DNA of 64,000 nt, taken from the IMG/VR virus record IMGVR_UViG_3300017788_000018, positions 1 to 64,000 of that record; one strand, given 5' to 3'. The notes under the pieces were generated by a model. That model saw only the letters and a program-made list of their open reading frames with translations, did not search any database and was not told where the DNA came from. Each line of letters starts with the position of its first letter. Positions within the stretch are counted from its first letter, which is position 1. Shown in pieces: positions 2,656 to 64,000 of the stretch. The translations under genes were made by a program, and so were the position numbers. The stretch comes from a virus.

Positions 2656-3618
2656 ATGTCACAGAAATCGCCACTAAACCTGCATGAAATTGTCAAGTCC
2701 TCAATCAGAAAGACTCTGAGCGAGTCCGGTGTGGACCTAACTCCCGCAGCCAAGCCACTCGCAAAGAAAGAGTCCCCAAAGGTGGCCCCGCTGACAAAGC
2801 TCAAGGAAGCCATCATTCTGACCCCGCGCTCTTTCCTGATCAAGACAGAGTTTCTGAGCGCCGGTGCAAAGCGTGCTCATGAGCTCCTTTACAACAGCTA
2901 TGTGGAGGCCGTTAACAAGATTGGTGCGGCCCTGGATGCTGCCAGCACAGAGGATGCCAAGTCAACCACCTCGAGCTTCCGCTCCCTTAAGGTTGACGAG
3001 ACCTTCAACCTGAATGCCGTCAAGCTCCATGAGCTTCACTTTAGCAACATTTCGGACCAGGCCTCTGAGATTGGTGTGGACTCCATTCCTTACATGAGGC
3101 TTTCCCGTGACTTCGGTACCTTCGAGAAGTGGCAATTCAACTTCATGGCCTGTGCCCTTAGTGCTCGCAGTGGCTGGGCCGTTACCTACTTTGAACCATA
3201 CCGCAATGTCTTTGTCAACACCTTCATCGATGGCCACGACGTAAATGTCCCTGTGGGTGTGATTCCGGTTTTGGTTCTGGATATGTGGGAGCATGCCTAC
3301 TTCAAGGACTATGGCGATGACAAGAAATCCTACATCATTTCCATGATGAGAGAGATTAACTGGAACGTCGTGGAGGCCCGCATGACCGTGGTAGAGAAGT
3401 GCCCAATGGACATGCTCTACAGAATTGTGCCGGTTACAAATGACGTTCCCGAGCATATGCTCTCGGCAGCCCAAGAGGCAGCAGGTCGCCCTCCCATTGT
3501 GGACGTTGTTCCTGCCGCTGGTACCCCAGCAACCTCCCAGAGCAGACCAGGCATGGTAGCACCCACAGCCCCACCTTCTCCTGCAACGCAGACGCCTTCC
3601 ACCAATCCTAGGACCTGA
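2656..3618 (+). CDS. Fe/Mn superoxide dismutase-like protein, probably virion-associated
   Basis: 320 residues. Residues 64-225 follow the Fe/Mn superoxide dismutase plan. The four metal ligands are in place: His75 (in LSAGAKRAHELL), His125 (LHELHFSNI), Asp209 and His213 (LDMWEHAYF). The segment DFGTFEKWQFNF and SGWAVTYF match the conserved middle. The usual KHH of the second helix is absent, so the fold is divergent. Residues 1-30 form a short amphipathic start (LHEIVKSSIRKTLSE), like other probable inner-virion proteins here; the last 50 residues are a Pro/Ala linker. It lies among structural-type genes behind a CTATTTA motif. Activity is inferred from the ligands, not shown. Confidence 0.75.
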   Translation: MSQKSPLNLHEIVKSSIRKTLSESGVDLTPAAKPLAKKESPKVAPLTKLKEAIILTPRSFLIKTEFLSAGAKRAHELLYNSYVEAVNKIGAALDAASTEDAKSTTSSFRSLKVDETFNLNAVKLHELHFSNISDQASEIGVDSIPYMRLSRDFGTFEKWQFNFMACALSARSGWAVTYFEPYRNVFVNTFIDGHDVNVPVGVIPVLVLDMWEHAYFKDYGDDKKSYIISMMREINWNVVEARMTVVEKCPMDMLYRIVPVTNDVPEHMLSAAQEAAGRPPIVDVVPAAGTPATSQSRPGMVAPTAPPSPATQTPSTNPRT

Positions 3619-11252: not shown

Positions 11253-11330
11253 ATGAGTACCCGCAATAGCAATAACGACCTTGAGCATCTCGGTTCAAGA
11301 CATTTTCCTTCATTGAGGAGAGTCCTATGA
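11253..11330 (+). CDS. Mini-gene (25 residues) coupled to the next gene
   Basis: ATG 11253 lies seven bases after GGAG. The 25-codon frame ends in a TGA that overlaps the next ATG (11327) as ATGA. The peptide (MSTRNSNNDLEHLG, then a basic end) has no known relatives, but its MSTR start resembles that of the gene at 12353. It may be a leader that couples translation to the tetrad below, or a shortened paralogue start. Confidence 0.5.
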   Translation: MSTRNSNNDLEHLGSRHFPSLRRVL

Positions 11331-11869
11331 ACCTGGGGCCGAAGGCGTATTCTAATGCTCCGATTACATTGCCTAGGGTCGGTGACAAGCATTTGCCATG
11401 GTTTGCGAGGTTCTTCAAAACGACCGTGATCACCTCTTGCTTGGGTGGTGAGCAAACCTCTCAAACGGTAAAAAGCGGCATTCGGCCCGGTGACCTTGTT
11501 TCGTTCAACTACTTTGTGGACAGAGAGGTGTGCGCCACAGGTCACCCTAGGGTGTATCTCTCTGCCTTTGACTGCTCCAACGAACTTCCACTTCGAGACC
11601 TCGTGACCGGTACCGAACACATGAATTTTTTGTGCGAAGACACTCACCTGGAGAATGCACTGGTTCTGAGAACGGAGAATCCCCTAGCCAAAAAGAGTAG
11701 GGACCACCTTTACGTCCAGATTCTTTGGCGTGAGCGTCCATGGTGGTTCACTTGTCGCCCCGAAGATGTTTTTGGCTGTGCCGTAGCCAGCAATCATTTC
11801 TTTGGATTTGATTTCCGAGGAAAGAGCGTTTGTCAAATGTTGCACCTTACTCGTTACGCTCAGGAATGA
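11327..11869 (+). CDS. Tetrad paralogue 1 (GDLVSFNYF / PWWF family)
   Basis: 180 residues. It shares with the three following genes an N-terminal SNAPITLPRVGD-like strand, RPGDLVSFNYF, a VLR strand, YVQILWRERPWWF and the C-terminal MLHLTRYA. These features point to a beta-rich, SH3-like fold repeated by gene duplication. No known function. Translation appears coupled to the mini-gene by ATGA. Confidence 0.75.
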   Translation: MNLGPKAYSNAPITLPRVGDKHLPWFARFFKTTVITSCLGGEQTSQTVKSGIRPGDLVSFNYFVDREVCATGHPRVYLSAFDCSNELPLRDLVTGTEHMNFLCEDTHLENALVLRTENPLAKKSRDHLYVQILWRERPWWFTCRPEDVFGCAVASNHFFGFDFRGKSVCQMLHLTRYAQE

Positions 11870-11879
11870 GGATAGCCAT

Positions 11880-12356
11880 ATGACGGACTATTCAAAGCCA
11901 ACCAAATTCTTGACTCGCCTTGTTGATCCCAATAACCTCACAGGGAAACCCAAGATCGTCAGATCCATTCCTGTGCCAGGGGATTTGGTTTCCTATTCCT
12001 ATTTCGACAAAAATGGTGAGAACCGAACCATGGTTCCTCCTCTGAGTCTTCTTCTGAGAGCCTATCCACAATCAAACGACGTGCCAGGGAGCCTGCCATT
12101 CATTGCGATGGTGCGTATTTTTGCCTATCTAGACAAGGCTTTAATTCTCAGAGTTGTGGAAACACAATACACTTACATTCATTGGGTTCAGGTGTTGTAC
12201 AACAATCGTCCGTGGTGGTTTTCAACAAACACCGAGCTAGCCGAACGAACCTTATTTGACAAGTCTGTAAAGGATATGTACACTCAGATGCATCTTACCC
12301 GATATTTTGGAGTGACCGTTCCTCCCGTTCCGGCAGAAGAAAAGAAGGCACTATGA
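11880..12356 (+). CDS. Tetrad paralogue 2
   Basis: 158 residues from ATG 11880, preceded by GAGGAT. Shared family blocks are VPGDLVSYSYF, LILRVVETQYTYIHWVQVL, RPWWF and MHLTRYF. The N-terminal part is shorter than in its neighbours. The stop overlaps the next ATG as ATGA. The frame is open further upstream, but that would overlap the previous gene by 68 bases. Confidence 0.75.
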   Translation: MTDYSKPTKFLTRLVDPNNLTGKPKIVRSIPVPGDLVSYSYFDKNGENRTMVPPLSLLLRAYPQSNDVPGSLPFIAMVRIFAYLDKALILRVVETQYTYIHWVQVLYNNRPWWFSTNTELAERTLFDKSVKDMYTQMHLTRYFGVTVPPVPAEEKKAL

Positions 12357-12946
12357 GTACTCGTGAGGCCAAATCCCTCATTCCGATCGCATTCAAGACC
12401 TTTTCGCATCTGGAGGTCAGTCCCCTAAACATGGGACGAGAAGAATATTGCTCGGCCCCGGTAACACCTCTAAAGGTCGGGGACTATCTCTCATTGGGAT
12501 ATTTTGTTGGTAGGCCTTTTCAAGGTTACGATATCGTTCCGGTTCAAAAGGACGATGCTGATTTTGAACCCCAAATCAAGACCCTAGAGCGTGTGTCAAA
12601 GTTCGATGCGCGCATCGAGACCGCTTTTCCAAAGACTGGTTTTAGTCGTAGGTATGAATCCGATTCATGTCCGTTTCTTGCAGAATGCACTGATGCAAGC
12701 GACCCTCCTCGCGTCATATATAGCGAACTTCAGCTTGAAAGGAGTCTCGTGTTGCAAGTGATTCCAACGCATGTGGCAGGTAGGCCCGTTGGCGAGTGCA
12801 TATACGTTCAGGTACTCACCTGCGGCCAGAAGTGGTGGACCGTGTTTGACAGCTACTTTACTGAACCACGCTATGCGAGAGGCGTCGTTCCGGCTGTCGT
12901 GAACCAAGGTATTTATGCCATGGCATATCTTCATCGACCAACCTGA
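12353..12946 (+). CDS. Tetrad paralogue 3
   Basis: 197 residues. Family blocks are EYCSAPVTPLKVGDYLSLGY, SLVLQVIPTHV, YVQVLTCGQKWWT and MAYLHRP. An insertion of about 40 residues with two Cys separates the first strand pair from the rest. It is joined to the previous gene by ATGA and overlaps the next by 32 bases. Confidence 0.75.
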   Translation: MSTREAKSLIPIAFKTFSHLEVSPLNMGREEYCSAPVTPLKVGDYLSLGYFVGRPFQGYDIVPVQKDDADFEPQIKTLERVSKFDARIETAFPKTGFSRRYESDSCPFLAECTDASDPPRVIYSELQLERSLVLQVIPTHVAGRPVGECIYVQVLTCGQKWWTVFDSYFTEPRYARGVVPAVVNQGIYAMAYLHRPT

Positions 12947-13538
12947 GACCAATGTCAACCCAAACCGGTTATGCAGCGCACCACTACCTGACATATCTTG
13001 CCCGATCGACAAACCCATGAGCCATATTAACACATCACTCCCACCCTCACTGCCACACGGGCACGTCTGGTTCAACACCTACACCTATCCACAAGAGCCA
13101 AAAGCTGGCATAAAGCCAGAGAAAACTTTGATGCGCCCCGGGGATTTAATATCCATGGGCTATATCCGCTTGGATGGAAGCATAATTGACACTTTTGCTC
13201 ACCCGCCACGCATTCGTTGTTACGAACACGTCCGCAAGACTATGACAGGAAATTTCACAGTAGGCGCAGAGAACCCCATTCTTCAGGCGAATGGGCATCG
13301 TTTAAGCATCACTCGTGCTCTCGTTTTGCAAATACTCAACGCAGATGTGACCGGTGAGGATCTTGTCCAAGTGCTCATTGGTGTGACACCATGGTGGTGT
13401 TATGTAAGGGTGAGAGATGCCGAGGGCATCTCTTATCATATGGCGTCGGAACTGGAGCCTTATAACTTCTGCAGGCAGCTCTACATTACACGCTACCCTA
13501 GAATTCCACAGGAAACAGTTGCGTCTCAAGGCTTGTAA
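12915..13538 (+). CDS. Tetrad paralogue 4
   Basis: 207 residues if the ATG at 12915 is used; ATG 13017 is the alternative. The upstream start is preferred because it keeps RLCSAPLPDIS, which matches the N-terminal block of the other paralogues, and AAGG precedes it. Other family blocks are RPGDLISMGYI, ALVLQILNAD, LVQVLIGVTPWWC and LYITRYP. The 3' end overlaps the convergent gene at 13498 by 41 bases. Confidence 0.7.
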   Translation: MPWHIFIDQPETNVNPNRLCSAPLPDISCPIDKPMSHINTSLPPSLPHGHVWFNTYTYPQEPKAGIKPEKTLMRPGDLISMGYIRLDGSIIDTFAHPPRIRCYEHVRKTMTGNFTVGAENPILQANGHRLSITRALVLQILNADVTGEDLVQVLIGVTPWWCYVRVRDAEGISYHMASELEPYNFCRQLYITRYPRIPQETVASQGL

Positions 13539-29117: not shown

Positions 29118-29279
29118 TTATAGGCCTTGTGGCCAGCCTTGCATCGTGTGTGAAAAAATAGTGTTGTTGAACATCTCTGTGTCTAGAACCATGCCAGTCT
29201 GGCCTCTCAGACCCATGTAGTCGGTGTCAACACAAACACTGTCTCCAACCTGATATTTTCTATACTTGACGTAGTTCAT
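29118..29279 (-). CDS. SH3-like array member 10 (truncated)
   Basis: 53 residues from ATG 29279. It keeps the N-terminal KYQVGDSV and RGQTGMVLDTE strands but lacks the VL.T.P..E.P block and final strand of its paralogues, so it looks decayed or shortened at the end of the array. Twenty bases separate it from member 9. Confidence 0.55.
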   Translation of the reverse strand: MNYVKYRKYQVGDSVCVDTDYMGLRGQTGMVLDTEMFNNTIFSHTMQGWPQGL

Positions 29280-29299
29280 GGTGAATTTACAGGTCTCTG

Positions 29300-29584
29300 T
29301 TATGGCACTTCCTCGTTCTTTGTGCATTCCACGGAGTCTTTAGGAGTCAACTCGGTGGCATAGAACGCCACAACCTCTGGTTGTTCTTTGTGTAGTGGAG
29401 AGACCAATACACTGTATATGTTGGGAATGTTGTCAACCCATGGGAAATTCACCTCAGGGAATTCAACTTCCTCAAGAATGATTCCTGAACTTTCATTGTA
29501 CTTGCCGAGATAGGTGTTTTCACACCTGACAATCACCAGATCGCCAATCTTGAATTGGGTATTCTTCTTTTCTGTTTTCGTCAC
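29300..29584 (-). CDS. SH3-like array member 9
   Basis: 94 residues from GTG 29584, overlapping the stop of member 8 as GTGA with GGAG upstream. Family blocks are QFKIGDLV, SSGIILEEVEF, YSVLVSPLHKEQP and VVAFYATELTP. It has a longer middle loop and an acidic tail. Confidence 0.75.
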   Translation of the reverse strand: MTKTEKKNTQFKIGDLVIVRCENTYLGKYNESSGIILEEVEFPEVNFPWVDNIPNIYSVLVSPLHKEQPEVVAFYATELTPKDSVECTKNEEVP

Positions 29585-29802
29585 CTAACCAACTCCAGTT
29601 GCGGTTCAATGGCCCAATAGTACACGGGCTTATCGCTGTCTGTCCTCGACAAGAGGACGCAATACTCAATCATTGTACCAGCGTATGGCTCTTTCTCTAC
29701 TTTCAGAATTACGGCTGTGTCCCCGGAAAAGGCCTTGCCGAATCTATGGATTTCGTAGAAATACACAAGGTCACCGACCTTGAATTTAGGCTCGGGTCTC
29801 AC
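29581..29802 (-). CDS. SH3-like array member 8
   Basis: 73 residues from GTG 29802 with AAGGAGG just upstream. Family blocks are KFKVGDLVYF, DTAVILKVEK, YCVLLSRTDSDKP and YYWAIEPQLELV. It overlaps member 7 by 17 bases. Confidence 0.75.
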   Translation of the reverse strand: MRPEPKFKVGDLVYFYEIHRFGKAFSGDTAVILKVEKEPYAGTMIEYCVLLSRTDSDKPVYYWAIEPQLELVR

Positions 29803-30001
29803 TGTCCCTCCTTAGAGCAGTTAGAAGGTAGCCCCAGAAAGCTCGAATGATGGGAGCTTCCTTGTCTGGGTGTGTCACCAACACAAAGTACAGAAAGCCA
29901 TTGTAGTTGTCCTCAACCTCATCTACCACCACACCTATTGCGCTGGGATCTCGGTTGATAGACACAAGGTCACCGACCTTGAATTTGAATTCGGGGTTCA
30001 T
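29786..30001 (-). CDS. SH3-like array member 7
   Basis: 71 residues. Family blocks are KFKVGDLVSIN, AIGVVVDEVEDN, YFVLVTHPDKEAP and IIRAFWGYLLTAL. ATG 30001 overlaps the stop of the mini-gene as ATGA, with GGAGGG just before it. Confidence 0.78.
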   Translation of the reverse strand: MNPEFKFKVGDLVSINRDPSAIGVVVDEVEDNYNGFLYFVLVTHPDKEAPIIRAFWGYLLTALRRDSETRA

Positions 30002-30081
30002 TCTTCCCTCCCTGTATCAGGGACAAGATCCATAACATCCACTTTGCGAGGGGCAGGAGTCTCTTTGGAAAAGAAAGTCAT
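29998..30081 (-). CDS. Mini-gene (27 residues) inside the SH3-like array
   Basis: ATG 30081 overlaps the stop of member 6 as ATGA, and its own TGA overlaps the ATG of member 7 as ATGA. The 27-residue product (MTFFSKETPAPRKVDVM, then acidic) has none of the family blocks. It contains the ribosome site of member 7 and may exist to keep translational coupling, or be the remnant of a lost member. Confidence 0.5.
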   Translation of the reverse strand: MTFFSKETPAPRKVDVMDLVPDTGREE

Positions 30082-30335
30082 GGTTTTGTGGTGGTTAGGG
30101 TGCGAATAAGGTCGGATCTAAAGAAGGTTTCGAGAAAAGGCACCTCTTTGCTTGGCATAGTCAAGAGCACCTCACATTGCTCAAAGCGGAGAGTGCCATC
30201 CCTGGCGATTCCGTGGTCACGAACCACCATACCAACGGCCTCTCTGTAAACAGGAAAGAAGTCGCACAGTGATGGTGCAGGTCTTACGATATCGCCTATT
30301 TCTAGCCTGATAGGGTTCTTAGCCTGTGAGGTCAT
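30078..30335 (-). CDS. SH3-like array member 6
   Basis: 85 residues. Family blocks are RLEIGDIV, VGMVVRDHGIA, CEVLLTMPSKEVP and LETFFRSDLIRTL. ATG overlap with the member 5 stop (ATGA). Confidence 0.77.
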   Translation of the reverse strand: MTSQAKNPIRLEIGDIVRPAPSLCDFFPVYREAVGMVVRDHGIARDGTLRFEQCEVLLTMPSKEVPFLETFFRSDLIRTLTTTKP

Positions 30336-30547
30336 GTTGGTATCAGTATCAGATAGGTGGTGCTGAAATACTCAAGTCTAGGTGTTTCATAAAAGGGATG
30401 AGTGACAAGCACCGTGTAGTAGTATTCCTCCATTGCCATTGGATTGTTCCGTTCGATGCCTACAATCAAACCGGTAGAATTGTGATAATGAAATAGGGCT
30501 GTGTTGAAACTAACGAGGTCACCCACCCTGAAACCAGGACCTGTCAT
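30332..30547 (-). CDS. SH3-like array member 5
   Basis: 71 residues from ATG 30547, which overlaps the member 4 stop as ATGA; ATG 30568 in the same frame is an alternative. Family blocks are GFRVGDLVSF, STGLIVGIER, YTVLVTHPFYETP and LEYFSTTYLILI. Confidence 0.77.
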   Translation of the reverse strand: MTGPGFRVGDLVSFNTALFHYHNSTGLIVGIERNNPMAMEEYYYTVLVTHPFYETPRLEYFSTTYLILIPT

Positions 30548-30759
30548 TTCTTCACCAAAATGAGACATACGGCGGGGATGTTCATCATCACAGGTTCCTC
30601 TCTGTTAGGATAGGTGGTGAGAATGTCGCAGTGCGGGAGGCGATCGGCCTCGTGCACGGCCACGACAATAGCCTTTGCCCCTCGGAGGCCAGTGAAGTAC
30701 ATCATACTTGTCGGTTCAGCAAACTCCACAATGTCGCCAACTTGAAAATTGTTCTTCAT
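30544..30759 (-). CDS. SH3-like array member 4
   Basis: 71 residues from ATG 30759, overlapping the member 3 stop as ATGA; ATG 30771 is an alternative. Family blocks are NFQVGDIVEFAEP, AKAIVVAVHEAD, CDILTTYPNREEP and MMNIPAVCLILV. Confidence 0.76.
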   Translation of the reverse strand: MKNNFQVGDIVEFAEPTSMMYFTGLRGAKAIVVAVHEADRLPHCDILTTYPNREEPVMMNIPAVCLILVKK

Positions 30760-31040
30760 TCTGGCAACCATCGGCTAAGTTCAAATTCCCAATAGCTGTG
30801 CACAACAGGAGCTTCTAAGTCTGGAATGGACATTAGTATCCTATAGTTCCACCGCTGCCCTCGAAATTCGGCCCAATCTGATTTCCGACAAGTACAGGTA
30901 AGCACCATTCCCCTGACCCCTTCGTGTCTTAGGATGCTGCCCATGTTAAGGGCAGACTTAAAGTCTAGGCTCAGGATTACCATGTCCCCAACCTGGAACT
31001 TTTGCTTCTTCGGCGTAGAGGAGTTTGCATTTTCAGTCAT
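30756..31040 (-). CDS. SH3-like array member 3
   Basis: 94 residues from ATG 31040. Family blocks are KFQVGDMVILS, GVRGMVLTCTCR, YRILMSIPDLEAP and VHSYWEFELSRWL. A longer, Cys-containing middle loop sets it apart. It overlaps member 2 by 8 bases. Confidence 0.75.
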   Translation of the reverse strand: MTENANSSTPKKQKFQVGDMVILSLDFKSALNMGSILRHEGVRGMVLTCTCRKSDWAEFRGQRWNYRILMSIPDLEAPVVHSYWEFELSRWLPE

Positions 31041-31251
31041 TGTGCACCCGTCTAAGATTGCATTCTCTGAATATATGGAGACGGGGTTCCTCAGCCTTTT
31101 GCATAGAGAGGAGTACGGTATACCGTTGCGACTCCCCAATCCAAGGGTCGTAGATGACATCCACAATCATTCCCCTGGACCCAACGAAATCATGATGTGG
31201 GAGATTGCAAGGTTCCACAATGTCTCCGACCTTAAAGAATGGCACTGTCAT
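31033..31251 (-). CDS. SH3-like array member 2
   Basis: 72 residues. Family blocks are FFKVGDIVEPCN, SRGMIVDVIYDP, YTVLLSMQKAEEP and LHIFRECNLRRV. ATGA overlap with member 1. Confidence 0.77.
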   Translation of the reverse strand: MTVPFFKVGDIVEPCNLPHHDFVGSRGMIVDVIYDPWIGESQRYTVLLSMQKAEEPRLHIFRECNLRRVHND

Positions 31252-31457
31252 GGGTCTACCTTTGCCGGTACAAGCTCATCCTCGAAGAAAACTCTCAATG
31301 TCGGTGTTTCAAGGTGTGGCTTGGTCAGTAGCACCTTGTAATACAAATCGTCTCGATCGTAGCCAACCACGATATCAACTGACCCTTCCAAGCCTCCGAT
31401 AATTCTTTGAAGGCGAGCATCCGGTTCAACACGGTCTCCAATATTGAATCGTCTCAT
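31248..31457 (-). CDS. SH3-like array member 1 (first of the array)
   Basis: 69 residues. Family blocks are RFNIGDRVEPD, EGSVDIVVGYDRD, YYKVLLTKPHLETP and LRVFFEDELVPA. It has an ordinary upstream gap, and translation of most following members is probably coupled to it through ATGA overlaps. The fold is inferred: five short strands starting with VGD, like KOW/SH3-type barrels. Function unknown. Confidence 0.76.
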   Translation of the reverse strand: MRRFNIGDRVEPDARLQRIIGGLEGSVDIVVGYDRDDLYYKVLLTKPHLETPTLRVFFEDELVPAKVDP

Positions 31458-31512: not shown

Positions 31513-31881
31513 CTAGCCAACCCGAATGATCGGGCAAATCTTCACGGAATCCTCGTAGTGGGACTTTCGCTTCTTTGCCGGGAGGGTGTCCCTTGACTTG
31601 GAGTGGTAAGGATGCGTGCGGCGAATCATCGGGCTTTCCGGCTGCACCATGGAGATATAGACTTTGTTCTCTTCCATGAAGTTCTCGTACCAATCAAGCT
31701 CTCGATGGAGATTTTGGATTTCGTATGTGGTGTAGTCCACCCCGTTGAACACAACGGCTTCCTTTTTTGACAAGAGCCTTTCCAGCTTCTCTAGGGCATT
31801 CAGATAATCCGAACGGACCTTGTTGAGTCTCTCCTTGGTCAGGGGTAAGGAGGCACCCACAGTGATTTTAGCTTTGCTCAT
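31513..31881 (-). CDS. Hypothetical protein
   Basis: 122 residues from ATG 31881, with GAGGGG nine bases upstream; ATG 31890 is also in frame. Helical first half (LTKERLNKVRSDYLNALEKL), basic C-terminus. A (CT)n run at 31893-31908 and a CTATTTA motif lie upstream. No family recognised. Confidence 0.65.
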   Translation of the reverse strand: MSKAKITVGASLPLTKERLNKVRSDYLNALEKLERLLSKKEAVVFNGVDYTTYEIQNLHRELDWYENFMEENKVYISMVQPESPMIRRTHPYHSKSRDTLPAKKRKSHYEDSVKICPIIRVG

Positions 31882-31892
31882 ATGTGCCATCC

Positions 31893-31917: not shown

Positions 31918-31924
31918 TAAATAG
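31918..31924 (-). promoter_or_regulatory. CTATTTA motif (candidate late element)
   Basis: On the minus strand CTATTTA lies 36 bases before ATG 31881, with CTCG/CGAG flanks. The position overlaps the 3' part of the next gene. Confidence 0.3.
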
Positions 31925-31954
31925 GCGAGCCCACAGGGGCTCGCCAGGGTTGGC

Positions 31955-33305: not shown

Positions 33306-33515
33306 CTATTCGGCCAGGTCGTTCTTCCACTCGGTCTTGCGGCGCTTCTTTCGGCGCTTGTCCTCATGGGTACCGGCACCAGTACGAAAGGAAGCCTGGA
33401 CGATCATGTCCGACTTGGCACCGATCACGAGATCAACGGTTGAGGGCAGCGACTTGCGTGCCTTCTTGCGGTTTCGGTTGCGGGCCTTGCGGCTATTCTT
33501 TCGAGACTTGCTCAT
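33306..33515 (-). CDS. Very basic small protein
   Basis: 69 residues, with two Lys/Arg-rich blocks (residues 2-22, and KRRKKRRK near 53-60) around a short folded stretch (STVDLVIGAKSDMIVQASF). It probably binds nucleic acid. ATG 33515 lies about 40 bases after an early-type promoter. Confidence 0.65.
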   Translation of the reverse strand: MSKSRKNSRKARNRNRKKARKSLPSTVDLVIGAKSDMIVQASFRTGAGTHEDKRRKKRRKTEWKNDLAE

Positions 33516-41296: not shown

Positions 41297-41623
41297 TCAG
41301 TCCCTAGACGGGAAGAGGCTCGGGTTGTCGAAGTCTAGATAGAGAATGTTCTCGGCTTCCCAATCCTTCTGGATATCCAACTGGAGCTTAGGAGTGGGGC
41401 TCACTCCATCAATCTTGACAACCAAGGGAAACGTCCACTCGGGAACCATAGGTTCCTGCTGGTGCTTCTGTCCGAGCACCCGACCCAAAATCTGCTTTGT
41501 CTTTTCGTATCCTGCCGGGGTACGAGGGTCGATGTGATTGATCATCAGATCCATTACGACCTGCTCTGTCAACCAATTGAGCATCGAGTTAATCCTACGC
41601 CGGTAGGTTCGAATCTTGTTCAA
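41297..41623 (-). CDS. Hypothetical protein
   Basis: 108 residues. TTG 41623 overlaps the upstream stop as TTGA, the same arrangement as at 2118; ATG 41584 after AGGA is an alternative. Basic helical start (IRTYRRRINSMLNWL), then beta strands. No family recognised. Confidence 0.6.
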   Translation of the reverse strand: MNKIRTYRRRINSMLNWLTEQVVMDLMINHIDPRTPAGYEKTKQILGRVLGQKHQQEPMVPEWTFPLVVKIDGVSPTPKLQLDIQKDWEAENILYLDFDNPSLFPSRD

Positions 41624-42081
41624 GTTGCCTCGCCTTCTGAGTTTTCCTCAGGATTCGGGGGCGTGAGGGCACCAGGAATGGGCACGACACCAGGCATAGC
41701 CAGCACCTTCACGAAGGTACCGCCGAAAAGGTTGTCACCAGCCTGGTGAATCTTCTGGTAGTTGTAGTGAACCACGATTCCATCATAGAGGAAACGCAGA
41801 TAGACCCAGCTACTCCAGTGATCGTAGGCCGGACCAAGATAGGTCACCATGCTCTGACCCTCAATGGTGATGTACTCGGTCTCGGCGGTCTCCTTGGTGG
41901 AGGGAACCGGGTCACGCTCGATCATCGTCTGTGCGTCCACGGTATGAACGACCTTGACGATATCGCCCACGTTGAGGCTGTGCTTAGCGGCCATCTCAAA
42001 CTTCACGTCCAGAAGGCGACGATTGATAATCGCCTTAGGGGCCGGGCCTGCCCGTCTCTCTCTACGTTCCTCTAGAGCCAT
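41620..42081 (-). CDS. GE.W/LYDGK-family protein
   Basis: 153 residues. LNVGDIVKVVHTVD starts the folded part, followed by SMVTYLGPAY and VYLRFLYDGIVVHYNY, the strand pair that marks a dispersed family (42123, 60687, 61076, 61614, 63461). The C-terminus is Pro/Glu-rich. GTGAGG lies before ATG 42081, and a strong early-type promoter precedes it. Function unknown. Confidence 0.7.
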   Translation of the reverse strand: MALEERRERRAGPAPKAIINRRLLDVKFEMAAKHSLNVGDIVKVVHTVDAQTMIERDPVPSTKETAETEYITIEGQSMVTYLGPAYDHWSSWVYLRFLYDGIVVHYNYQKIHQAGDNLFGGTFVKVLAMPGVVPIPGALTPPNPEENSEGEAT

Positions 42082-42121
42082 ACGATTTCCTCACAAAGGG
42101 GTTGTGCGTTGTGTCTATTCC

Positions 42122-42150
42122 ATTATAGACCGTTTTCGTTCTGGTTTAAA
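42122..42150 (-). promoter_or_regulatory. Phage early-type promoter (leftward)
   Basis: Minus strand: TTTAAA, 17 bp, consensus TATAAT, preceded by AGAATAAATGG. The -35 end lies inside the 3' end of the upstream gene. Confidence 0.88.
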
Positions 42151-42569
42151 CCATTTATTCTGGGCTCAATTTTTACTAGATAGGCCTCAGGCGTCAACAG
42201 AGCGAAGGTATGATAGACTTTTCCATCGAACAAAATTCTGATCTCAAGAGCTCCACTGATCTTTTCTACGGAGGAAAGGAATACCACGACGAACCCTCCA
42301 TGGAGGGTTCGTGAGGCGGATCTTGGGCGGTATCTAGGGCTGGAGGGGTAGTAGATGGCATACAGGCCTTCATGAATTGGTCGAAATTCCTGCAAGTCAT
42401 TGGAAGCTAGTTCTGACACGGGAGCCCAAAGCAAGGGTTCCTTAACGGCTGCCATGTCACCTGCCTGCAACTTTACATATGGCCTCTGAACCCAGAGCGG
42501 CCTTGCGGTCTCTGGGTTGGAGTCGTCATATGGCAGAAGATCATCAAACGATGTTTTTTTCTTCGTCAT
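42123..42569 (-). CDS. GE.W/LYDGK-family protein
   Basis: 148 residues from ATG 42569; ATG 42584 is also in frame. Family landmarks are VKLQAGDMAAVKEP, GGFVVVFLSSVEK and LEIRILFDGKVYHTFALL. The start overlaps the end of the upstream gene by 26 bases. Function unknown. Confidence 0.65.
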   Translation of the reverse strand: MTKKKTSFDDLLPYDDSNPETARPLWVQRPYVKLQAGDMAAVKEPLLWAPVSELASNDLQEFRPIHEGLYAIYYPSSPRYRPRSASRTLHGGFVVVFLSSVEKISGALEIRILFDGKVYHTFALLTPEAYLVKIEPRINGLNQNENGL

Positions 42570-42936
42570 CGGGAATTTCTTCATCTATCGGGGTCGCAGG
42601 GGATGCCTTCGAGGCCTTCGAGGCCTTCTTCCTAGGACCCACGGGTGCATGCTCCTCTAAAAGCTGGTCGATCGTATCCTTTACCTCTTGATCGGGCTCC
42701 ATGTCACAAAAGACCTCGAAGGCACGGGCAAAATCCGTATCATACGAAATCTGATCCTTTTGAAGTCCGGTCAGGAAATCCAGGGCATTGCTCTTGGTTA
42801 CACTCTTGCTGCGAAGAAAGTCCTCGGTGGTCTGCCTGCGCCGCCTGAGAATGTCCGTGATGTTCGGAAAACCAGGCTTCACAAGGCTTTCAAGGGCAGC
42901 GATCAGTCTTTCGCGAAAGGAAGGGCTCTTACTCAT
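42544..42936 (-). CDS. Hypothetical protein
   Basis: 130 residues, helical (SFRERLIAALESLVKPGF; DILRRRRQTTEDFLRS) with a Lys/Ala/Ser linker and acidic tail. It forms an operon with 42933 and 43247 joined by ATGA overlaps. Confidence 0.65.
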   Translation of the reverse strand: MSKSPSFRERLIAALESLVKPGFPNITDILRRRRQTTEDFLRSKSVTKSNALDFLTGLQKDQISYDTDFARAFEVFCDMEPDQEVKDTIDQLLEEHAPVGPRKKASKASKASPATPIDEEIPDDEEKNIV

Positions 42937-63191: not shown

Positions 63192-63464
63192 ATGAACATT
63201 CCGGCCCATATACCTGAACCCACAAAGCCTCATCGATTCCAGATTGGTGATCGGGTGACGTTCCATGCGCAGGTGGGCAGCGTTGGAATGATCGTCGGGT
63301 CCAAGTGGGGCTCCACGCACCTTAAGATTGATGGCCAAATTCGGCTAACGCACTATTCGATCTACAATGTACTTTTGACATACCTAGATGAGGAAATTCC
63401 CTGTCTCAGGAATTGCCTGGAGTACGAGATTGACCTCTTTCCGTTCAAGTCAGAGAAGACATGA
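63192..63464 (+). CDS. Detached SH3-like array relative
   Basis: 90 residues. RFQIGDRVTFH, VGMIVGSKWGS, YNVLLTYLDEEIP and LRNCLEYEIDLF match the blocks of the ten-gene array at 29118-31457. It is the only full relative found outside that array. ATGA couples it to the next gene. Confidence 0.72.
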   Translation: MNIPAHIPEPTKPHRFQIGDRVTFHAQVGSVGMIVGSKWGSTHLKIDGQIRLTHYSIYNVLLTYLDEEIPCLRNCLEYEIDLFPFKSEKT

Positions 63465-63817
63465 AATTCCGAAAGAAAATTCCGCAGGAAGGTGAGCTTT
63501 GGAAACTCAGGCTTCACCATTTCCTTTACGCAGGTGAACAAGACCGCATGCGGACCATTGGTCCGCGGACCATTTGGAGCAACGGCGAAATTAATTTCCT
63601 GCTGATCCTGAATCCCACGGAATGTCCAGAGGGCTTCAGGGGTTATCGTTGCGAAAACGGAGTTTGGTGGCACAATGAAAACAACGATTACGTCAATCGA
63701 AACATGTATCGAGTCGTTTGGTTTCTGTATGATGGCAAGATTCTCTGGTCTTACTTGGACCATTTTTTGTTGAATGCTCAGTTGGTTGACATTGAACGGG
63801 AGAAACCTCGGCCATGA
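63461..63817 (+). CDS. GE.W/LYDGK-family protein
   Basis: 118 residues. QEGELWKLRL, INFLLILNPTECP and YRVVWFLYDGKILWSYL are the family blocks. ATGA overlaps with both neighbours. Function unknown. Confidence 0.7.
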   Translation: MKFRKKIPQEGELWKLRLHHFLYAGEQDRMRTIGPRTIWSNGEINFLLILNPTECPEGFRGYRCENGVWWHNENNDYVNRNMYRVVWFLYDGKILWSYLDHFLLNAQLVDIEREKPRP

Positions 63818-64000
63818 ACAACTTCCCCAAAGAAGGCGAAATCTGGGCTGTGAATCAGGACCGCATGGTAACCTTTTACGTCAAAGCCGGTCATCGTACG
63901 CTCGACTGCAACACAACTCCGTTCGTAATCCTGCATATGCGAGTTAAGCCCGATTGGTTTCGTGGCTTTTTCCAGAGTGGTAGATGGTTCAAAGGGAAAA
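63814..64000 (+). CDS. GE.W-family protein, N-terminal part
   Basis: The first 62 residues are visible; the gene continues beyond the window. KEGEIWAVNQDRMVTFYV and a later FVILHMRVKPDWF parallel the gene before it. ATGA joins the two. Confidence 0.65.
   Translation, partial: MNNFPKEGEIWAVNQDRMVTFYVKAGHRTLDCNTTPFVILHMRVKPDWFRGFFQSGRWFKGK

Follow-up and report, generated by a model that had tools for sequence, protein, structure and literature searches.

Ten small leftward genes occupy positions 29118–31457 (−) of the window, by which we mean the whole 64,000-nt stretch of DNA that was analyzed (Table 1). The window makes up nearly all of the 64,841-bp IMG/VR virus record IMGVR_UViG_3300017788_000018, which covers part of the genome of a large tailed phage, an uncultured virus of bacteria. 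The window encodes a DnaE-type DNA polymerase, a DnaQ-like exonuclease, ClpP, an MT-A70 methylase, an M23 peptidase, patatin, two metallophosphoesterases, one sigma-70 factor, a VWA/metallopeptidase protein and a single tRNA. A further protein carries an iron/manganese superoxide dismutase domain at its C terminus (Pfam E 6.5e-20) and is about 50% identical across related phages; this is unusual phage cargo. A megablast search with 24 kb around the array found no matching record in the phage collection.

Table 1 Array genes and other features of the window, with leave-one-out profile E-values for family members
Feature	Position	Strand	Length	Remarks	Leave-one-out E
g1, SH3-like mini-protein	31248..31457	-	69 aa	ATG start	1.9e-11
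g2	31033..31251	-	72 aa	ATGA overlap with g1	2.6e-13
g3	30756..31040	-	94 aa	8-nt overlap with g2	7.5e-10
g4	30544..30759	-	71 aa	ATGA overlap with g3	9.6e-9
g5	30332..30547	-	71 aa	ATGA overlap with g4; 78 aa if started at an upstream ATG at 30568	6.7e-11
g6	30078..30335	-	85 aa	ATGA overlap with g5	3.5e-9
g6b	29998..30081	-	27 aa	ORF between g6 and g7; ATGA overlap on both sides	
g7	29786..30001	-	71 aa	ATGA overlap with g6b; own GGAGG ribosome site	1.8e-9
g8	29581..29802	-	73 aa	GTG start; 17-nt overlap with g7; own GGAGG ribosome site	3.8e-8
g9	29300..29584	-	94 aa	GTG start; GTGA overlap with g8	9.3e-9
g10	29118..29279	-	53 aa	20-nt gap after g9; upstream ATG at 29327 possible	3.9e-4
g11	63192..63464	+	90 aa	Dispersed eleventh member	1.4e-8
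ORFan	31513..31890	-	~125 aa		
Terminator-like hairpin	31924..31945	-		9 pairs, 8 of them G-C	
Superoxide dismutase-domain protein	2656..3618	+	320 aa		
Four overlapping paralogues	11327..13538	+	180-207 aa		
Small basic protein	33306..33515	-			
Two adjoining ORFs	41620..42584	-	153 aa each		
Family B chain	63461..64000, continuing to 64841 of the record	+	~115-121 aa each	Overlapping genes directly after g11	

A sequence-only reading of this DNA had described ten consecutive genes here. All ten ORFs are present, at 53–94 aa with the starts used, but they are not strictly consecutive, as g6 and g7 are separated by g6b, which may be what is left of a degenerate copy. With g6b counted as a member of the chain, 4-nt stop-start overlaps are found at seven of ten junctions (six ATGA and one GTGA), in agreement with the overlaps reported by that reading for most neighbors. 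Its proposal that the genes are probably made together fits these overlaps, from which translational coupling would be predicted. Clear ribosome sites are found in g7 and g8 only. The last gene, g10, is C-terminally short, without the final strand, and looks like a truncated copy. The ORFan upstream of g1 would lead the same transcript as the array, and the position of the hairpin is suggestive of a boundary that would part the array and this leading gene from the leftward genes upstream; terminator-like sites are as numerous as expected from shuffled sequence, and promoter-like sites are no commoner than in shuffles.

The ten ORFs follow a common plan: [FY]-x-[VI]-G-D-x-V, a G-x-[IV]-V strand and [YC]-x-[VI]-L-...-E-x-P. 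In the alignment, G-D-x-V and the P of E-x-P are invariant and the L of Y-x-V-L is nearly so. Profiles built with one gene left out recovered that gene at E-values of 2.6e-13 to 3.8e-8 for g1–g9 and 3.9e-4 for g10 (HMM search with Z=10,000), and the best of 1000 shuffles per gene scored far below the true members; the plan proposed from the sequence is thus upheld. A six-frame search of the window added g11, absent from the earlier reading, as the only further member, matched at E=1e-8 by a profile made without it. By these profile scores, the ten genes and g11 are true homologues, paralogues of one scaffold.

Pairwise identity is highest at second codon positions (0.56–0.62) and near random at third positions (0.33–0.37), which indicates that the genes are under protein-level constraint. 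The barrel consensus is retained at about 30% identity. Third positions near random also mean that dS is saturated, both in window pairs and in pairs from the relative described below, and dN/dS values were discarded. The idea that loops diverge while the scaffold stays holds in part: segment length varies, with 24–44 residues between GDxV and YxVL, but column entropy is no higher outside the strands (mean 1.98 bits) than within them (2.02 bits). The invariant residues are G, D, V and P plus the hydrophobic residues of the barrel, and for this reason the proteins are not enzyme-like. Net charge at pH 7 is negative in ten of the eleven members, and pI values range from 4.6 to 7.8. The window alignment is too diverged for a pattern search; neither a conserved basic patch nor a KOW motif is seen in it.

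The family in a related phage

Related records were collected through DnaE (21 records) and through patatin (48 records); they reach 480 kb in length. One of them, IMGVR_UViG_3300026078_000017 (320 kb; hereafter G009), shares gene order with the window phage, and its DnaE and patatin are 58% and 67% identical to those of that phage. It gave weak scattered matches to the window profile, and a chain of six overlapping genes of the same plan lies at 296.7–298.2 kb. The window profile alone missed the G009 copies, and a local full-sensitivity HMM search with iteration was needed. Iteration from the six-gene chain, with a mixed profile, retrieved 52 members below a cut-off of E 0.02, which none of 21,774 shuffled or reversed decoys passed; at E<1 there were 69 candidates. 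An independent search tool found 37 members, and a profile made from G009 sequences only, which had not converged, found at least 26; any count beyond 26 rests on iterative inclusion and is an estimate. From these searches, G009 holds at least 26 members and probably more than 50. The expansion proposed for the window is supported, and it is far larger in this relative.

The link between the two sets was evaluated with profiles of separate origin. The G009-only profile matches g5, the window member closest to the G009 family, at E-values of 9e-4 to 0.02, and several other window members follow closely. In an independent hhalign comparison the window and G009 families align over 49 columns (probability 86.7, E 4e-6). 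Homology between them is thus well but not overwhelmingly supported by profile evidence. A comparison of the window profile with the mixed profile was dropped as independent support because the mixed alignment includes window sequences.

In G009 the members lie at 26–36 kb and 242–312 kb, on both strands, as runs of overlapping genes and some single genes. The candidates cover 25% of the bases in a 70-kb part of the genome, and a homing-endonuclease-like ORF is found near the arrays. A small basic protein is encoded near array members in both phages (Table 1; G009 275445–275633, minus strand), with 47% identity over 45 aa.

The distribution beyond these two phages is narrow. The independent tool found no members in the 44 other patatin-bearing records, the iterated profile found none past the cut-off in the local set of relatives except in G009, and with the G009-only profile no other relative gave a match below E 0.1. 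Two records whose DnaE is closer to that of the window phage than G009's (G001 and G002, 74%) have no array within their 48–59 kb of sequence. The segment at 27.7–33 kb of the window has no counterpart in any relative, and we therefore regard it as an accessory island. Among the records searched, these profile results show the family to be restricted to this lineage.

In G009, similarity declines with distance along the genome. Members less than 400 bp apart score a mean of 49, versus 29 for those more than 5 kb apart (p=7e-7); within the window alone there is a trend only (Spearman rho −0.23, p=0.095). The genes g7 and g8 share a 54-nt 5′ block (29755–29808 and 29954–30007) that is 78% identical in DNA. 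The conserved F-K-V-G-D-L-V start of the two genes is nearly identical in DNA and contains the palindrome-like CAAGGTCGGTGACCTTG, possibly a recombination seam. Growth by tandem duplication is supported by these sequence comparisons.

Of the eleven window copies, ten have their best match in their own phage, and so do nearly all copies of G009. In a tree of 53 copies (11 from the window and 42 from G009), two changes of phage label suffice, compared with 10.2 by chance, and none of 500 shuffles gave so low a number. Branch support is poor and the branches are long, and the tree can carry a coarse statement only. Stated coarsely, each phage expanded the family mostly on its own, or homogenized it.

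Predicted fold and known families

The AlphaFold2 model of g2, made with the 11-sequence alignment, has five strands (pLDDT 86.5, pTM 0.73). A model of one G009 member has the same strand order (pLDDT 84.8, pTM 0.75); it came from a separate run, with an alignment led by G009 copies in which window rows were also included. Foldseek searches of the PDB returned only SH3-like barrels, with varied functions, and placed KOW domains (NusG/Spt5-type), eL21/eL27-type ribosomal proteins, Agenet/Tudor domains, chromodomains, CarD, KapB and NdhS as neighbors, with no match at E<0.001 for either model. Searches against viral models returned many solitary small phage proteins with no assigned function. 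The confident models of one window member and one G009 member, and the agreement of their neighbors, support a predicted five-strand SH3-like barrel as the fold of the family, as had been suggested from the sequence.

A search of 46 members against PHROG, Pfam, NCBIfam and PDB sequences gave no family match beyond isolated weak ones, each to one member (E 0.002–0.1), and direct family scans of the ten genes gave none. At its curated cut-off Pfam gave no KOW match, and the members are mostly acidic. The sequence-only reading could name no system of this architecture, and in these databases no family is shared by the members. Queries with single members retrieved no relatives from viral contigs and phage genomes. 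Six loci came from a scan of viral and genome contigs for the degenerate C-terminal motif; on profile check, none was a member.

Other repeated genes in the window and in related phages

Two further tandem gene sets occur in the window, and so does a pair of adjoining ORFs with a shared motif (Table 1). The chain directly after g11, here family B, has the motif P-x-[EQ]-G-E-[IL]-W; its first three genes are homologous (blastp E 1.6e-6 for B1/B2 and 2e-4 for B2/B3), and the fourth runs off the record end. The four overlapping paralogues recover one another in leave-one-out searches at E-values of 7e-14 to 7e-4, and three of them have the motif P-G-D-L-[VI]-S. The two adjoining ORFs have an A/V-G-D-x-[VA] motif; the first is conserved at 34–36% in G001, G002, G005 and G017, near the sigma factor, and may be a remote, single-copy member of the same stock as the array family.

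A separate family of tandem genes of about 100 aa, here GKLY, is present in two other relatives, at about 39 copies in G014 (260 kb) and about 29 in G011 (123 kb), with the consensus IGKLYxVK...FPTKELA...CNVxxVEP...VLLE...KVLDSNGxIGWI. The G-x-[LV]-[VY] ... VLLE ... KVL plan of these arrays is similar to that of the window family, but the hhalign probability between the two is below 10%. Homology of the window (GDxV) family with GKLY or with family B is not supported by profile comparison.

The GKLY family allows selection to be measured, as 14 of its copies in G014 are recent. In a simple test on these 14 copies, pN/pS is about 0.55 in the scaffold parts and 1.24 in a 20–34-residue insert (1.18 in gap-free columns), compared with 1.04 in a codon-shuffled control for the insert. 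Misalignment is not the full explanation, given that the insert has a pS of 0.43, well short of the 0.69 obtained on shuffling. The insert has the look of a binding loop that diversified while its scaffold stayed fixed, in a family that differs from that of the window.

Possible functions and comparison with known systems

We propose that, in a lineage of large tailed phages, one SH3-like mini-protein scaffold was duplicated in tandem and then strongly diverged. The array would be expressed as a single chain, in which re-initiation at stop-start overlaps would serve to translate most copies, and the cell would receive many different small barrels together. These may form an arsenal, early or accessory, of small binding modules. 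Each would be adapted to a different host target, which could be a defense protein, RNA polymerase, the ribosome or other machinery, and would be inhibited or redirected. The stable barrel, the lack of conserved catalytic residues, the mixed charge, the presumably co-translated chains, the lineage-specific tandem expansion and the accessory location fit host-directed protein-binding modules, and a role in target binding or anti-defense is plausible. The mixed charge, with pI values of 4.3–10.5 in G009 in addition to the window range, speaks against a ligand common to all members, such as DNA. The GKLY family of G014, from the same phage group, offers a parallel in its constrained scaffold and fast insert, which by analogy counts in favor of the proposal; against the proposal, entropy in the predicted loops is no higher than in the strands. 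We judge a lineage-specific arsenal of host-targeting modules, for takeover or counter-defense, to be the most likely reading, with a little under an even chance of being correct. A broader form, which we consider possible but rather doubtful, is a jumbo-phage clade with private repertoires, in which dozens of mini-protein binders would arise by tandem duplication of a constant scaffold, the scaffold differing by branch (GDxV in the window phage and G009, GKLY in G014 and G011), as an antibody-like host-targeting library.

The nearest folds (NusG/Spt5-type KOW, eL21/eL27-type ribosomal proteins, Agenet/Tudor, CarD and kinase-associated protein B) would suit several tuned copies of one regulator of KOW, CarD or Tudor type, binding nucleic acid or the ribosome or RNA polymerase. 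We regard this as unlikely, given that no neighbor reaches E<0.001 and that SH3-like barrels have many functions, that almost all window members are negatively charged and have neither a conserved basic patch nor a KOW motif, and that 50-odd copies are excessive for a single regulatory task. The truncated g10, the stub g6b, the extreme divergence and the homing-endonuclease-like ORF of G009 would instead suit neutral or selfish expansion, in which recombination-prone early regions duplicate a small domain and the copies drift and decay, mostly with little function. The ten intact frames with their tight overlaps, the much stronger conservation of second than of third codon positions, and a consensus retained at an identity where pseudogenes would not be expected to retain it make this somewhat more unlikely still.

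Two structural readings are improbable. Coupled, near-equimolar synthesis, as the overlaps predict, and a size and fold common to all barrels would serve a hetero-oligomer, for which ten distinct barrels would be co-produced and assemble into one mixed ring or shell; we give this little credence, as copy number is very unequal (11 versus at least 26–52), some members stand alone (g11 and the G009 singles) and G009 copies lie on both strands. The least probable is that the barrels are minor virion or packaged internal proteins. Giant phages reportedly have paralogous ejected head proteins, as is said of SPN3US, but the family has no virion-family match other than that of one member to a virion PHROG at E 0.018, its arrays sit among accessory small ORFans and not beside recognized structural genes, and they are absent from close relatives with the same core genes.

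In large phages the majority of genes are small ORFans that lack relatives, and in G009 a sizeable share of these belongs to a single hidden family. If the members of the proposed arsenal bind different host targets, the arrays would be a ready source of new counter-defense proteins and a direct route to how phages generate inhibitors, by duplicating a stable scaffold and varying its loops. As a practical rule, tandem SH3-like mini-proteins may serve as a pointer to host-interaction genes in jumbo phages.

The SH3-like fold, solitary phage SH3-like mini-proteins (as predicted structures) and phage gene amplification are already known. No phage arrays this large and diverged from one mini-protein scaffold were found in the families, genomes and papers searched; in the open-access PMC literature on jumbo phages, no comparable tandem array of SH3-like or otherwise paralogous mini-proteins turned up, which is weak evidence of absence. 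The family has the five-strand small barrel in common with the SH3-like superfamily (KOW/NusG, Agenet/Tudor, chromodomain, CarD, KapB and NdhS), but it differs in having no sequence match or significant structural match to it and in consisting wholly of phage mini-proteins in tandem arrays. Solitary SH3-like phage proteins in BFVD, such as those of Agrobacterium phage Atu_ph07 and Pseudomonas phage pf16, are similar in size and fold (TM ~0.7–0.78). A family-profile search of Atu_ph07, pf16 and phiM9 found no comparable array; phiM9 gave one partial match (35 positions, E 6.7e-4).

The nearest process is segmental amplification of the T4 kind, in which a small early phage gene occurs in tandem copies under host pressure. 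T4 overcomes ToxIN by amplifying tifA, which encodes the inhibitor, in tandem (PMC9391042), and amplification of anti-defense loci is driven by the homing endonuclease SegB (PMC13096335). Those copies are recent, identical and change dosage, whereas the copies described here are ancient, 20–40% identical and many. The arrays may represent a long-term, diverged version of such tandem anti-defense gene amplification.
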